Shown: positions 2,141 to 32,457 of the stretch, piece after piece | How positions within the stretch are numbered: position 1 is the stretch's first letter | Layout: each line of letters starts with the position of its first letter | NCBI GenBank assembly: GCA_934279105.1 | Contig: CAKQWR010000005.1 | Span: forward strand, 1-32,668 | From: an uncultured Oribacterium sp. | GTDB taxonomy: Bacteria; Bacillota; Clostridia; Lachnospirales; Lachnospiraceae | Length of the DNA stretch: 32,668 nt | Direction of reading: 5' to 3' | Program-made: the position numbers and the translations under genes | The notes under the pieces: model-generated | Databases searched by the model: none | The model's input: only the letters and a program-made list of their open reading frames with translations | Told to the model about the DNA's origin: nothing

Positions 2141-3505
2141 ATGGATACAAAAAAGACAATCAGGGATATGACATCAGGGAGTCCGATGCGTTTAATTCTC
2201 GGCTTTGCCGTGCCGATGCTTCTAGGCATTCTTTTCCAGCAGCTTTATAGCATGGTGGATACCGTCATGGTCGGACGGTTTCTCGGTGCGGATGCACTTG
2301 CGGCAGTGGGATCTACCGGTGCCATCAATTTTATGGTGAACGGTTTCGTAATCGGTGCGACAGCAGGATTCGCTATTCCGGTCGCGCAGCGATTCGGTGC
2401 GCGTGATTTTGATGGGATGCGGCAGTATGTCGGAAATATCGTATGGCTGACGATATTGTTTTCCGCGGTGATGACGGCGTGCATGAGCGTGCTCGCACAT
2501 CAGGTGCTGGTATGGATGCATACACCGGATGAAATTCTGGAACAGGCGTATAGTTACATCGTTATTATATTTATGGGACTTTCGGCGACCTACCTCTATA
2601 ATATTACGGCTTCCATCGTGCGATCTCTGGGAGATTCGAAATCGCCGGTATATTTCCTGATGATTTCGTCTGTACTGAATATTATTCTTGATTACGTATC
2701 GATTCGAATCGTAGGAATGGGGGTGTGCGGCCCGGCGCTGGCGACGATTATCAGTCAGCTGGTTTCCGGCGTTCTCTGCTTCTTTTATATGGTAAGGCGC
2801 TTCGATATTCTGAAGTTGAAACAGGATGACTTGCGTATGCGGGCAGAATGTGTTCAACGCTTACTGTGGATGGCGATTCCGATGGGACTTCAGTATTCGA
2901 TCACAAGTATCGGAAACATCATTCTGCAGACGGCAGTCAATACACTGGGTGTTATTTCGGTTGCAGCGGTCACGGCAGGTGATCGTATCATCGTTTTATT
3001 TGCATGCGTCTTTGATTCACTGGGTGGCACGATGGCGACCTATCAGGGACAGAATCGAGGCGCGCTTAAATACGACCGTCTGAAAGCAGGCGCAGCATCG
3101 GCGATGAAGATTGGTGCCGTGTATTCTGTGATTGCGGTGGCTGTTCTTGCGGCGATTGGCTGGAAATTACCCCTTCTGTTTGTGACAAATGGAAATGCAG
3201 AGGTTGTTGCCGGCGCACATCAGTATCTGATGACACAGGTGCTGTTTTTTGTTCCGCTCTGTGCAGTAAATGTATTTCGCTTTTCTATTCAAGGCATGGG
3301 ATTTTCCGGTATTGCGATTATCGCGGGCATATGTGAGATGTTCGGTAGAGGGCTGGCTGGATTTCTGGGCGTTCGTTATTTCGGATATACAGCAGCCTGT
3401 CTGGCCGCACCGCTTGCATGGCTTTTTGCCGATGCCTTTTTGATTCCCTGCTTCTACCGCTGTGTGCGTACGCTGGAAAAAGAAGATACAAATACGATGT
3501 CATGA
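2141..3505 (+). CDS. MATE-family multidrug efflux transporter
   Basis: Inner-membrane exporter of the MATE family, which usually exchanges cationic drugs or metabolites for Na+ or H+. The 454-residue product opens with a short polar tail (TIRDMTSGSP), then the family's first helix with LGILFQQLYSMVDTVMVGRFLG. About twelve hydrophobic segments follow in two similar halves; the second half begins near IPMGLQYSITSIGN. The start at 2141 follows GAAGAGGA; upstream in-frame ATGs at 2096 and 2099 lie in the terminator tail and lack a ribosome site. No clear promoter separates it from fbp, so readthrough may contribute. The substrate is unknown. Confidence 0.93.
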   Translation: MDTKKTIRDMTSGSPMRLILGFAVPMLLGILFQQLYSMVDTVMVGRFLGADALAAVGSTGAINFMVNGFVIGATAGFAIPVAQRFGARDFDGMRQYVGNIVWLTILFSAVMTACMSVLAHQVLVWMHTPDEILEQAYSYIVIIFMGLSATYLYNITASIVRSLGDSKSPVYFLMISSVLNIILDYVSIRIVGMGVCGPALATIISQLVSGVLCFFYMVRRFDILKLKQDDLRMRAECVQRLLWMAIPMGLQYSITSIGNIILQTAVNTLGVISVAAVTAGDRIIVLFACVFDSLGGTMATYQGQNRGALKYDRLKAGAASAMKIGAVYSVIAVAVLAAIGWKLPLLFVTNGNAEVVAGAHQYLMTQVLFFVPLCAVNVFRFSIQGMGFSGIAIIAGICEMFGRGLAGFLGVRYFGYTAACLAAPLAWLFADAFLIPCFYRCVRTLEKEDTNTMS

Positions 3506-3543
3506 CTCTAAAATGTCTGATTACATTTTCACTGCCTGAAAAG

Positions 3544-3560
3544 ATGAAAATAATTTTCAT
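3544..3560. repeat. Fur-family-like 7-1-7 inverted repeat
   Basis: A perfect 17-base inverted repeat with a single central base, of the form TGAAAAT-A-ATTTTCA flanked by A and T. It matches the known Fur box TGATAAT-N-ATTATCA at 12 of 14 positions. It lies between a possible -35 (CTGAAA, 3536-3541) and a possible -10 (TAAAAT, 3560-3565). AT-rich palindromes of this size can occur by chance. Confidence 0.4.
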
Positions 3561-3571
3561 AAAATACAAAT

Positions 3572-3689
3572 TTTTGACAAGTTATCAGAGTGAAGGTGTG
3601 AATTTAGATGATGCGATATTCGTTTGAAACACGGAAATCGGACATGCCGGTGTGGCTTTCGCGGAAAAAACGCGGAAGCCACTTTTTTT
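3572..3689 (+). ncRNA. Candidate short terminated transcript (orphan terminator)
   Basis: The 373 bases between the MATE gene and the next regulator hold no convincing gene. They do hold the inverted repeat at 3544-3560, a TTGACA at 3574-3579 and a strong terminator at 3652-3689. That terminator is 147 bases past the MATE stop codon, so it may simply end that gene's mRNA. Alternatively it ends a short RNA of about 90-120 bases started at either possible promoter. The ATG frame at 3608 runs through the terminator stem and is not a credible gene. This is inference only. Confidence 0.25.
3652..3689 (+). terminator. Strong Rho-independent terminator
   Basis: The arms 3652-3663 and 3671-3682 form a 12-bp stem with one G-U pair and a 7-base loop, followed by seven T. 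Confidence 0.85.
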
Positions 3690-28742: not shown

Positions 28743-29711
28743 ATGAAGAAGTCAATCAAGCTTGCAATTGCCGGTGTAATGGCAATGTCCATGATTACAG
28801 CATGTGGTGCGGGTGCTACCGAGACCGCCACAACAGCCGCTGCCACAACCGCTGCAGCAGCCGATAAGACCGCAGCCGATACGGAAGTAGCAACCACCGA
28901 GGCGCAGGCAGAAGCAGCCGGTGGTTCCATGGAGGGTGCCATCGATGTAATTTCCCGTGAGGATGGTTCCGGCACCAGAGGCGCATTTATCGAGCTGTTC
29001 GGTGTAGAGCAGAAGGATGCTTCCGGTGAGAAGGTTGATTATACTACCGATGATGCAGAAATCACCAACTCTACCGAGGTTATGATTACTTCCGTTGCAG
29101 GTGACAAGCAGGCCATCGGTTATATCTCCCTTGGTTCTCTGAACGATTCCGTAAAGGCTGTAAAGATCGATGGTGCAGCAGCAACCGTAGATGATATCAA
29201 GGACGGCAGCTATAAGATCGCTCGTCCGTTCAACATCGTCACCACTGGTGAGGTTTCCGATGTAGCACAGGATTTCATCAATTTCATCTTCTCTGAGGAA
29301 GGTCAGAAGGTGGTTGAGGATAACGGTTATATCTCCCAGGGCAATCAGGGTGCGTACACGGCTTCCGGCAAGAGCGGTAAGGTAACCGTTGCAGGCTCAA
29401 GCTCCGTCACACCGGTTATGGAGAAGCTTGCAGAGGCATATAAAGCACTGAACAGCGATGTAACGGTTGAGGTTCAGCAGTCGGATTCTACGACCGGTGT
29501 AACTTCTTCCATCGAGGGTGTATGTGATATCGGTATGGCTTCTCGTGATCTGAAGGAAGAGGAGACAGCAAAGGGCGCACAGGGTCAGGTAATCGCAATG
29601 GATGGTATCGCGGTTGTTGTTAACAACGAGAACCCGATCGATGACCTTACAGCAGAGCAGGTAAAGGATATCTATGTAGGCGACACTACAGACTGGTCTG
29701 AGATAGCGTAA
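28743..29711 (+). CDS. pstS: Phosphate-binding lipoprotein PstS, circularly permuted
   Basis: Extracytoplasmic phosphate receptor of the Pst importer, 322 residues. Lipobox ITAC gives C21, then an Ala/Thr linker to about residue 60. Motif order is reversed from usual PstS. ISREDGSGTRGAF (70-82), normally mid-protein, comes first, then AIGYISLGSL and FINFIFSEEGQKVV. The usual N-terminal part comes last: VAGSSSVTPVMEKLAEAY (216-233), QQSDSTTGVTSSIEGVCDIGMASRDL and NPIDDLTAEQVKDIYVGDTTDW. The protein stops at DWSEIA, the usual junction with the REDGSGTR part. All phosphate-site loops are present once, so it should fold as a complete receptor. AGGAGG is 11 bases before the ATG. Confidence 0.93.
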   Translation: MKKSIKLAIAGVMAMSMITACGAGATETATTAAATTAAAADKTAADTEVATTEAQAEAAGGSMEGAIDVISREDGSGTRGAFIELFGVEQKDASGEKVDYTTDDAEITNSTEVMITSVAGDKQAIGYISLGSLNDSVKAVKIDGAAATVDDIKDGSYKIARPFNIVTTGEVSDVAQDFINFIFSEEGQKVVEDNGYISQGNQGAYTASGKSGKVTVAGSSSVTPVMEKLAEAYKALNSDVTVEVQQSDSTTGVTSSIEGVCDIGMASRDLKEEETAKGAQGQVIAMDGIAVVVNNENPIDDLTAEQVKDIYVGDTTDWSEIA

Positions 29712-29764: not shown

Positions 29765-30847
29765 ATGGAAAACGAAATTACATTACATCATGTAGTCCAC
29801 GAAGTTCATGAAACAAATACAGAGAGCCCGGCGACGGGCTCCTCTGTATGTATGAACATCGCCGATGATCAGGTACTTGGAAATACACCGGTATCACAGG
29901 GGTTTGCAGGAAGATCGAACGTACAGAAGACAGCAAAAACGGCACGTGCCACTGGTGATCATCCGCTTCGTGGAAGCGGTGCTGCCGCTGTTCGTGAGAG
30001 CATCGCAAAATATGTGTTCATGCTGCTGGCAAGTATGAGTATCTTCCTCGTTATTCTGATTTGTTACTTTCTCTTCTCAAATGGTATTCCGGCGATTCTG
30101 AAGATTGGTGTGAAGCAGTTCCTGACGGGTACCGTCTGGAAGCCGAAGAACAACATCTTCGGAATCCTGCCGATGATCGTGGGCTCGGTATATGTAACCA
30201 TCGGTTCCATCCTCGTCGGTGTGCCGATCGGTATTCTGACAGCGGTCTATCTCTCGAAGTTCTGCTCGAAAAGAATTTATAGAATTGTGAATCCGGCAGT
30301 GGAACTCCTTGCCGGTATCCCATCGGTTGTGTACGGCTTCTTCGGTCTCGTTGTGATCGTTCCGATCATCGCTGCGCTGACCAAACCGTTCGGTGGAAAA
30401 GGAAAGTCGATTCTGACGGCCTCCATCCTGCTCGGCATCATGATTCTGCCGACCATCATCAGCTGTGCGAAAGCCGCCATCGATGCGGTGCCGGAGAGCT
30501 ACTATGAGGGAAGCCTCGCGCTGGGTGCGACGCACGAACGCTCCATCTTCCATGTAATGGTTCCGGCTGCACGCTCCGGCATCTTCGCCGGTATCGTCCT
30601 CGGTGTCGGACGAGCCATCGGTGAGACCATGGCCGTCATCATGATCGCCGGTAATCAGCCACGTATGCCGAAGGGAATCTTTCAGGGGACACGTACCATG
30701 ACCGCAAACATCGTTCTCGAGATGGGATATGCGGTCGGACTTCACCGGGAGGCACTGATTGCCACGGGCGTTGTACTGTTTCTCTTCCTGCTGTGCATTA
30801 ACCTGATCTTCAGTTATATCAAGCACAAGTCGGAATCCAAGTACTAA
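29765..30847 (+). CDS. pstC: Phosphate ABC transporter permease PstC
   Basis: Inner-membrane permease of 360 residues. The conserved part starts near residue 76 (VRESIAKYVFMLLASMSIFLVILICYF) and includes FLTGTVWKPKNNIFGILPMIVGSVYVT, the LAGIPSVVYGFFGL segment and the EAA-type loop EGSLALGATHERSIFHVMVPAA. About 75 residues precede this, hydrophilic and unlike the family. AAGGAAATCGT supports the ATG at 29765. An in-frame ATG at 29852 lacks a ribosome site and follows a strong hairpin. The extension is therefore either translated or a misassigned leader. PstC pairs with PstA. Confidence 0.93.
   Translation: MENEITLHHVVHEVHETNTESPATGSSVCMNIADDQVLGNTPVSQGFAGRSNVQKTAKTARATGDHPLRGSGAAAVRESIAKYVFMLLASMSIFLVILICYFLFSNGIPAILKIGVKQFLTGTVWKPKNNIFGILPMIVGSVYVTIGSILVGVPIGILTAVYLSKFCSKRIYRIVNPAVELLAGIPSVVYGFFGLVVIVPIIAALTKPFGGKGKSILTASILLGIMILPTIISCAKAAIDAVPESYYEGSLALGATHERSIFHVMVPAARSGIFAGIVLGVGRAIGETMAVIMIAGNQPRMPKGIFQGTRTMTANIVLEMGYAVGLHREALIATGVVLFLFLLCINLIFSYIKHKSESKY
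29817..29849. repeat. Strong hairpin inside the 5' part of pstC
   Basis: The arms 29817-29830 and 29835-29849 pair over 14 bases with one bulge around a GCGA tetraloop. It lies in the extra 5' coding region of pstC. Two more perfect palindromes follow within 130 bases: GGCACGTGCC (29941-29950) and CCGCTTC/GAAGCGG (29963-29979). Confidence 0.7.
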
Positions 30848-30858
30848 GAGGGTAGGAC

Positions 30859-31683
30859 ATGAACCAGAAAGTTGAAAGTATTTTATTACGAGCAGTAACA
30901 CTGCTGGCGGCTACATTGACCGTCGGTACCCTGCTGTTTCTCATCATCTATATTCTGATCCGCGGCATCCCGTATTTGCAGCCGAGCCTTTTCGCCTGGG
31001 AGTACAATACGGAAAATGTTTCGTTGATGCCAGCGATGATCAACACCATCGTGATGACGGTGCTGTCTCTCCTGATTGCAATTCCGATGGGGGTCGGCTC
31101 TGCCATCTATCTCGTCGAGTATGCGAAGCGCGGTTCGAAATTTGTTGAGCTGATTCGTCTTACGACCGAGACCCTGTCTGGTATCCCATCGATTATCTAC
31201 GGGCTGTTCGGCTATCTTCTTTTCGTCATTCAGCTGCACTTCGGTTACTCCATCCTGGGGGGCGCACTCACGATCTCCATCATGATCCTGCCGCTCATCA
31301 TGCGCCAGACCGAGGAATCGCTGAAAGCGGTGCCGGATCTGTTCAGAGAAGGCTCTCTGGGCCTCGGTGCCGGTAAGCTTCGCACGATTTTTTCCATCGT
31401 ACTGCCATCCGCAGTGCCGGGTATCCTCGCGGGTATCATCCTGGCCATCGGACGTATCGTCGGTGAGACCGCAGCACTGATTTATACCGCAGGTACCGTC
31501 GCCGGCATTCCGAACTCCATCATGGGCTCCGGACGAACGCTCGCGATTCACATGTACGTTCTGACGAACGAGGGACTCTATACGAACCAGTCCTATGCAA
31601 CCGCGGTGGTATTGCTTCTTGTGGTTACGATGATCAATGCACTCTCATCGATGCTGGCGAAGAAACTTGCATCGAAGGCGTAA
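30859..31683 (+). CDS. pstA: Phosphate ABC transporter permease PstA
   Basis: Second Pst permease, 274 residues, about six transmembrane segments. Family features include MINTIVMTVLSLLIAIPMGVGSAIYLVEYA, LSGIPSIIYGLFGYLLFV, and the ATPase-docking loop REGSLGLGAGKLRTIFSIVLPSA. IGRIVGETAALIYTAG is the typical late segment. It starts 11 bases after pstC, with GAGGGTAGG upstream. Confidence 0.95.
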   Translation: MNQKVESILLRAVTLLAATLTVGTLLFLIIYILIRGIPYLQPSLFAWEYNTENVSLMPAMINTIVMTVLSLLIAIPMGVGSAIYLVEYAKRGSKFVELIRLTTETLSGIPSIIYGLFGYLLFVIQLHFGYSILGGALTISIMILPLIMRQTEESLKAVPDLFREGSLGLGAGKLRTIFSIVLPSAVPGILAGIILAIGRIVGETAALIYTAGTVAGIPNSIMGSGRTLAIHMYVLTNEGLYTNQSYATAVVLLLVVTMINALSSMLAKKLASKA

Positions 31684-31704: not shown

Positions 31705-32457
31705 ATGGATAAGTTTGAAATCAAAGATGTGAATTTACACTATGGCGCATTTCATGCGCTTCATGACATCAACCTTGATATTGCGCCGAATGAGATCACG
31801 GCCTTCATCGGACCGTCCGGCTGTGGTAAGTCCACACTGCTCAAGTCGCTGAACCGAATGAACGACCTGGTGGAGGGATGCCGCGTGGATGGTCAGATCC
31901 TCCTCGATGGTCAGGACATCTACCGGAAGGATGTCGATGTCAATACACTTCGTAAGCGGGTCGGCATGGTCTTCCAGAAGCCGAATCCGTTTCCTATGTC
32001 GATTTATGACAATGTTGCCTACGGTCCACGTACGCACGGTATTCGCAACAAGAAGGAGCTCGATGAGATCGTCGAGACCTCGCTTCGTGAGACGGCGATC
32101 TGGGATGAGCTGAAGGATCGTCTCGGAAAATCCGCACTCGGTCTGTCCGGTGGACAGCAGCAGCGTCTCTGCATCGCCCGCGCACTGGCCGTCAAGCCGG
32201 ATGTACTGCTTATGGATGAGCCGACCTCCGCACTGGATCCGATTTCAACCTCGAAAATTGAGGATCTGACACTGCAGCTCAAGAAGGATTTCACAATCGT
32301 GATCGTGACCCATAATATGCAGCAGGCAACCCGTATTTCAGATAAGACCGCATTCTTCCTTTTAGGAGAGCTGGTCGAGGCAGACAAGACAGAGAAGCTG
32401 TTCTCGATGCCGAAGGATAAGCGCACAGAAGATTATATCACCGGTCGTTTCGGCTGA
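31705..32457 (+). CDS. pstB: Phosphate ABC transporter ATPase PstB
   Basis: Cytosolic ATPase of the Pst importer, 250 residues. Walker A is GPSGCGKST (36-44), the Q-loop is in [13 protein letters not shown], the signature LSGGQQQR is at 147-154, Walker B is LLMDEP (168-173), and the switch histidine is H203. The [16 protein letters not shown] segment is characteristic of PstB. It follows pstA by 21 bases with AAGGAGAAGG upstream. phoU, often next, is not recognisable in the remaining 210 bases. Confidence 0.97.

Follow-up and report, generated by a model that had tools for sequence, protein, structure and literature searches.

PstS, the phosphate receptor of the PstSCAB importer, is among the most studied binding proteins. 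Here we describe a pstS gene whose two halves stand in swapped order, located at positions 28743 to 29711 of a 32,668-nucleotide stretch of DNA from an uncultured Oribacterium sp. of the Lachnospiraceae (the whole stretch is called the window). Judged from sequence, we estimate a probability of about 0.87 that its product is a circularly permuted phosphate receptor, functional and lipid-anchored, the permutation most likely being a single event. The permuted PstS is real, intact and widespread. This reading is based on the two halves being single and swapped, the completeness of the predicted fold, the conservation of PstS residues, the place of the gene at the head of a pstCAB operon and the crystallisation of a collinear protein with 49% identity.

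The swapped order emerges from alignment with the canonical Clostridium PstS 4q8r, in which query residues 212-321 match 4q8r residues 4-113 (i-E, the independent E-value, 3.5e-28) and residues 62-194 match 115-240 (i-E 5.4e-21). Both blocks occur once in the open reading frame (ORF), in an order swapped relative to 4q8r and far beyond chance, confirming the circular permutation proposed in the original prediction, which had been made from the letters alone. The motif REDGSGTRGAF lies at residues 72-82 and VAGSSSVTPVMEKL at residues 216-229, in the second half of the chain, both exactly where they had been placed. The chain end DWSEIA was likewise correctly identified as the point where an ordinary PstS continues into the first motif, as in 4q8r the canonical chain leads from the last residues of the permuted protein almost straight into its first. 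No block is duplicated in the ORF, so a truncated additional PstS copy does not account for the second half, and instead of two incomplete lobes AlphaFold gives one confident fold with two lobes. The family profile TIGR02136 matches in two separate pieces, the best stretch being query 206-321 on profile positions 31-155 of 295, and its canonical block order (GSxS, then SGTR) is not the order of the ORF. PF12849 (PBP_like_2) also matches in two stretches, scoring 116.1 bits at a gathering cut-off of 27. The parts of the gene are as follows.

28743..29711, + strand: circularly permuted pstS, lipoprotein ORF of 322 amino acids plus stop, ATG start
28743..28805, + strand: signal peptide with terminal lipobox ITAC, Cys21 being the expected lipid site (from sequence)
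28806..28934, + strand: Ala/Thr-rich linker, residues 22-64 (from sequence and AlphaFold confidence)
28935..29336, + strand: block A, residues 65-198, the second part of a canonical PstS (matches 4q8r 115-240 and 1twy 137-276)
28956..28979, + strand: phosphate-site motif REDGSGTR, residues 72-79 (conservation of S76, G77 and T78)
29220..29246, + strand: predicted strand 160-168, putative hinge strand from lobe 2 to lobe 1 (DSSP of the predicted fold)
29337..29372, + strand: junction linker, residues 199-210, between the former C- and N-termini (gap between profile blocks)
29373..29708, + strand: block B, residues 211-322, the first part of a canonical PstS (matches 4q8r 4-113 and 9l8j 2-117)
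29388..29429, + strand: motif VAGSSSVTPVMEKL, residues 216-229, the phosphate-site motif that is N-terminal in canonical PstS (conservation of G218 and S219)
29577..29624, + strand: predicted long strand 279-294, putative other hinge strand (DSSP of the predicted fold)

In the predicted fold, the long strands 160-168 and 279-294 would fit as the two hinge crossings expected in a type II binding protein. The cut would then lie inside lobe 2, placing the new ends between helix 304-312 and strand 68-72, and the old ends would lie in lobe 1, joined by residues 199-210. Both hinge strands appear to survive, and because they remain covalent, the clamp should still be able to shut around phosphate. 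The lipid anchor would have moved from lobe 1 to lobe 2, so that the expected shift of the anchor relative to the phosphate cleft follows from the topology inferred for the model. All 38 permuted rows compared have Cys21, AlphaFold confidence (pLDDT) is below 50 at residues 6-57, and the gap between the profile blocks measures 11-19 residues across 118 permuted proteins, 104 of which have 11-13.

The phosphate-site motifs are conserved equally in permuted and canonical PstS. S76, G77, T78, G218, S219 and S249 are present in 118/118 permuted and 61/61 canonical proteins, Arg268 in 117/118 and 60/61, and Asp287 in 118/118 and 60/61, respectively. We take residues of this type (Ser76, Gly77, Thr78, Ser219, Ser249, Arg268 and Asp287), and with them both motifs, to line the phosphate site. 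Asp248 is a mark of the permuted group, found in 114/118 permuted proteins at a position that is Gly in 61/61 canonical ones. Canonical PstS (TIGR02136; 4gd5, 4q8r, 1twy) thus shares the two blocks, the conserved residues and the usual PstC, PstA and PstB partners, but differs in block order, in the Gly at the Asp248 position and probably in the lobe that carries the anchor.

The closest structure is 4H1X, the phosphate-binding protein SP_2084 of Streptococcus pneumoniae TIGR4, released in 2012. It is 49% identical to the window protein and collinear with it over the whole mature domain, in the same permuted order; its source organism belongs to a different class of Bacillota. By its locus number, SP_2084 probably lies just behind pnpRS and would then be the pneumococcal Pst1, despite its PDB name PstS 2. 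According to one pneumococcal study, either Pst1 or Pst2 is enough to sustain growth at low phosphate, where the pst1 transcript rises about 200-fold (PMC4913102). No paper naming 4H1X turned up in the open PMC literature, nor did any description of a circularly permuted PstS, in a search that left subscription papers, preprints and permutation databases outside; in the passages of the matches checked, 'permutation' and 'permuted' referred to phage genomes or statistics. A crystal structure of a permuted PstS has thus already been deposited, apparently without description in the literature searched. The nearest published parallel that we have seen is TpMglB-2 (Tp0684), likewise a naturally permuted, lipid-tethered binding protein that still binds its ligand, whose authors raise tethering as a possible reason for the permutation (PMC4990184). 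It differs in having a type I fold, a glucose ligand and the need for an added fourth crossover (same source), and by its fold class its permutation is a separate event. The glycine betaine-binding proteins OpuAC/ProX, placed in a permutation family by the CPSARST paper (PMC2395249), bind other ligands and share 12% identity; the main text of that paper does not contain 'phosphate-binding'.

The window gene heads a pstCAB operon, with three genes directly 3' that all score above their TIGR cut-offs.

29765..30847, + strand: pstC, permease subunit (TIGR02138, 295.7 bits, cut-off 196.45; PF00528)
30859..31683, + strand: pstA, permease subunit (TIGR00974, 269.1 bits, cut-off 193.45; PF00528)
31705..32457, + strand: pstB, ATPase (TIGR00972, 423.6 bits, cut-off 343.2; PF00005)

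The window stops 211 bases past pstB; in the near relative L001 (L and G numbers denote loci and genomes), PhoU-like, response-regulator-like and kinase-like ORFs follow 3' of pstB. To place the operon in context we used 80 loci fetched with permuted queries, the best 80 of 163 confirmed stretches, which give no frequency estimate. All 80 have the permuted order, 79 by motif and L068, which has no match to the first motif, by profile. pstC, pstA and pstB lie within 6 kb 3' of the permuted gene in 78 of the 80 loci and pstC and pstA in the other two, with PhoU-like ORFs in 70, histidine-kinase-like ORFs in 63 and response-regulator-like ORFs in 61. The window PstC, of 360 amino acids, carries about 80 residues N-terminal to the part matching TIGR02138 (79-355), and L001 has an ORF of similar length.

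Whole genomes were scored with a permuted profile at a threshold of E 1e-50, chosen after the best split (canonical) row had reached 8.7e-46. The permuted form was found in 60/200 genomes of the family of Hungatella hathewayi (Lachnospiraceae), one of which (G490) has a broken copy only, in 9/100 of the class of Phascolarctobacterium (Negativicutes), in 5/246 of the phylum of Enteroscipio (Actinomycetota) and in 3/200 of the class of an S. mitis genome (Bacilli). In the phylum of Hungatella, 216/299 genomes match at 1e-5, and at least 10 of these genomes show the single-span permuted form among the matches listed. Each count includes the centre genome, picked for having the permuted form, and all except that for the Negativicutes were made by scoring the best few candidates per genome and may be low. 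Among 11 genomes searched individually, nine have permuted matches only and two (G003, G010) also have canonical halves. The permuted form is spread unevenly over Clostridia, Negativicutes, Bacilli (the five named rows include Streptococcus) and Coriobacteriia. This bears out the suspicion that similar forms occur in other Lachnospiraceae as a family trait, and the recurrence of the order in many loci and genomes rules out an assembly artefact. A class present in 60/200 Lachnospiraceae genomes seems undescribed in the literature searched, and it offers a natural experiment on which lobe needs tethering and how the receptor docks on PstC/PstA.

To analyze the origin of the permutation, 205 block-complete rows were reduced to 179 distinct ones, to 120 at 78% identity and to 86 in the tree (43 permuted and 43 canonical), the two blocks being aligned separately. 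The homologues sharing the swapped order, of which many were found, fall mostly into one group: the free PstS tree has two label changes, with 41 permuted rows together at a support of 96 and L123 joining at 83. Constraining all 43 permuted rows to one clade gave a log-likelihood 57 above the free tree, for which the short search had missed a better tree, and a p-value of 0.955 in the approximately unbiased (AU) test. Taken separately, block A requires one change and block B two. For PstC and PstA, an identity filter of 72% left 22 of the 90 permuted PstC rows, which were compared with 16 canonical operons having both matches, including an identical pair from L140 and a very long L095 branch. 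The 22 operons with a permuted PstS all fall into a single clade (support 100, stem 0.99). Since the all-permuted clade fits better and the PstC/PstA beside permuted PstS form one clade, one ancient permutation event followed by patchy spread is the most likely origin, as far as sequence can tell. On an 80-row PstS tree the four bacterial classes require five changes, compared with a minimum of three; horizontal transfer of permuted PstS is not shown.

The event itself may have been a tandem duplication, or an equivalent, in which a short linker came to connect the former C- and N-termini while the chain was opened at the lobe-2 loop between the first helix and the first strand. The two hinge strands would have stayed covalent and closure of the phosphate clamp would have been preserved, with both chain ends and the lipid anchor, formerly on lobe 1, now on lobe 2. 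The permutation most likely took place a single time, in an ancestor with a PstC/PstA lineage that remains distinct. No one-and-a-half-copy intermediate was seen among 214 ORFs with matches in 203 sequences (202 loci, many overlapping, and the window), the block patterns being AB in 142, BA in 68, A in 2 and B in 2. A tandem canonical pstS pair at L140:3898-5844 is possible raw material for permutation by duplication; its row sits among canonical rows, not beside the permuted group, and it serves as illustration only.

Several points weigh against a functional receptor of single origin. The ORF reaches 191.4 bits with TIGR02136, below the NCBI cut-off of 206.6, while the neighbouring PstC, PstA and PstB pass theirs. 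The support for phosphate binding consists of the conserved residues, and the lobe assignment of the new termini is derived from topology and strand lengths. The comparison of anchor linkers, which are longer in permuted than in canonical proteins (median 22 vs 16; Mann-Whitney p 2.6e-6; lipobox found in 107/118 permuted and 49/61 canonical proteins), takes no account of kinship. The PstC and PstA queries were the window's own proteins, so canonical operons lacking such matches dropped out. Finally, L105, although permuted, lies outside the permuted group and beside the canonical group in the free tree, and block B needs its second change. The last two points would also be expected if several independent permutations of PstS had all hit this loop, as would the slightly greater identity of L105 to canonical sequences (0.45 vs 0.42) and the canonical GGGSGTG motif retained by L105 and L123. 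The better likelihood of the all-permuted clade argues against repeated origins, as do the junction linkers, which are alike in length and carry a Tyr or Phe in all 20 rows displayed out of the 118, and the operon of L105/L138 (L138 being the same gene), which branches first within the permuted PstCA clade at support 100. We therefore consider repeated permutation improbable.

If the ORF were a remnant left by truncation or recombination, in which halves of two PstS genes had been fused and no longer gave a working fold, this could explain both the wrong block order for the family model and the missed cut-off. A remnant or second copy is, however, ruled out by the block matches with 4q8r, the confident single fold and the collinear crystal structure 4H1X, and the conserved residues and the 60/200 family genomes speak against it as well, leaving it practically no credence. 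A role chiefly as a phosphate sensor serving the adjacent PhoU and two-component system, and not as a supplier of the permease, would account for the frequent PhoU-like, kinase-like and regulator-like neighbours and for second permuted copies adjoining kinase genes in L127 and L137; yet pstC and pstA lie within 6 kb in 80/80 loci, the ordinary uptake arrangement, and we regard this role as very improbable. Close to an even chance, if slightly below it, must be given to a neutral permutation, in which the new ends leave docking and regulation unchanged and the link with the PstCA clade reflects common descent only. Both hinge strands are predicted to be intact, and most circular permutants keep their function, according to PMC2395249. 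Against neutrality stand the longer anchors of the permuted proteins and the fact that permuted PstS never occurs beside canonical-type PstCA in the 38 tree rows, neither of which proves a function.

Beyond the permuted receptor of the window, a divergent permuted branch has a different neighbourhood. Its profile, built from six proteins, assigns 13 members at 1e-94 or better, the next row being at 2.8e-83; at 1e-60 it matches 100/348 Lachnospiraceae genomes, 13 of them with a branch member. None of the 13 loci has a pstC match within 1.5 kb on each side. In 10 of the 13 (L203-L211 and L214, in genomes G433, G335, G383, G498, G867, G485, G788, G380, G773 and G817), a gene for a Na+/phosphate (Na+/Pi) cotransporter adjoins the permuted PstS on the same strand. 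This adjacency holds for 6/6 loci that supplied the profile, where it was known beforehand, and for 4/7 new ones; L213 has a polyphosphate kinase neighbour without an adjoining cotransporter, and L212 and L215 have neither. Pfam finds Na_Pi_cotrans and PhoU in 6/6 cotransporters tested. Polyphosphate kinase genes next to or near divergent permuted PstS were noted at L205/L125, L128 and L213, and Pfam confirmed the kinase in L125 and L128. In the open PMC literature, a search for a cotransporter-PstS pairing matched the pneumococcal Pst study alone.

These data raise the possibility, tentative and rather unlikely at present, that the ancient permutation founded a separate receptor class, tethered through lobe 2 and served by a permease lineage of its own, and that the divergent branch now passes phosphate to a PhoU-domain Na+/Pi cotransporter or gates it, in some loci next to polyphosphate kinase. 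If true, the branch would be a binding-protein-dependent secondary phosphate transporter, outside the ATP-binding cassette (ABC) transporter, and the adjacency raises the testable question of whether phosphate is taken up or sensed here in a novel way. Against this, a permuted PstS was near only 1 of 30 cotransporter loci fetched by Pfam (L260), the best-scoring of several hundred matches in 112/120 genomes, indicating that the link is not general; two further cases, in G335 and G383, were identified by coordinates outside those 30 loci. The close cotransporters of L255 and L257 have no PstS within the surrounding stretch. Moreover, 10 of the 80 ordinary permuted loci contain cotransporter-like ORFs, and there pst and cotransporter genes are neighbours anyway. 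Such ORFs were seen in or beside the ordinary permuted pst-phoU regions of L021, L033, L034, L036, L045, L046 and L071, with Ppk-like ORFs upstream of pstS in L034, L046 and partly L071.

Further copies and fragments were also observed. Upstream of the permuted pstS in L078, a 266-amino-acid ORF (2794-3594) has a lipobox-like start and a weak match to block B only (44 bits), with PF12849 at 23.7 bits, below the cut-off. Permuted copies broken by a stop codon lie at L127:8487-9440, adjoining a kinase and response regulator pair, and at L130:4964-5734, adjoining a cotransporter-like ORF. Two permuted PstS genes per locus are found in L137 (3731-4615 and 10333-11274) and, in tandem arrangement, in L135, L019 and L224.
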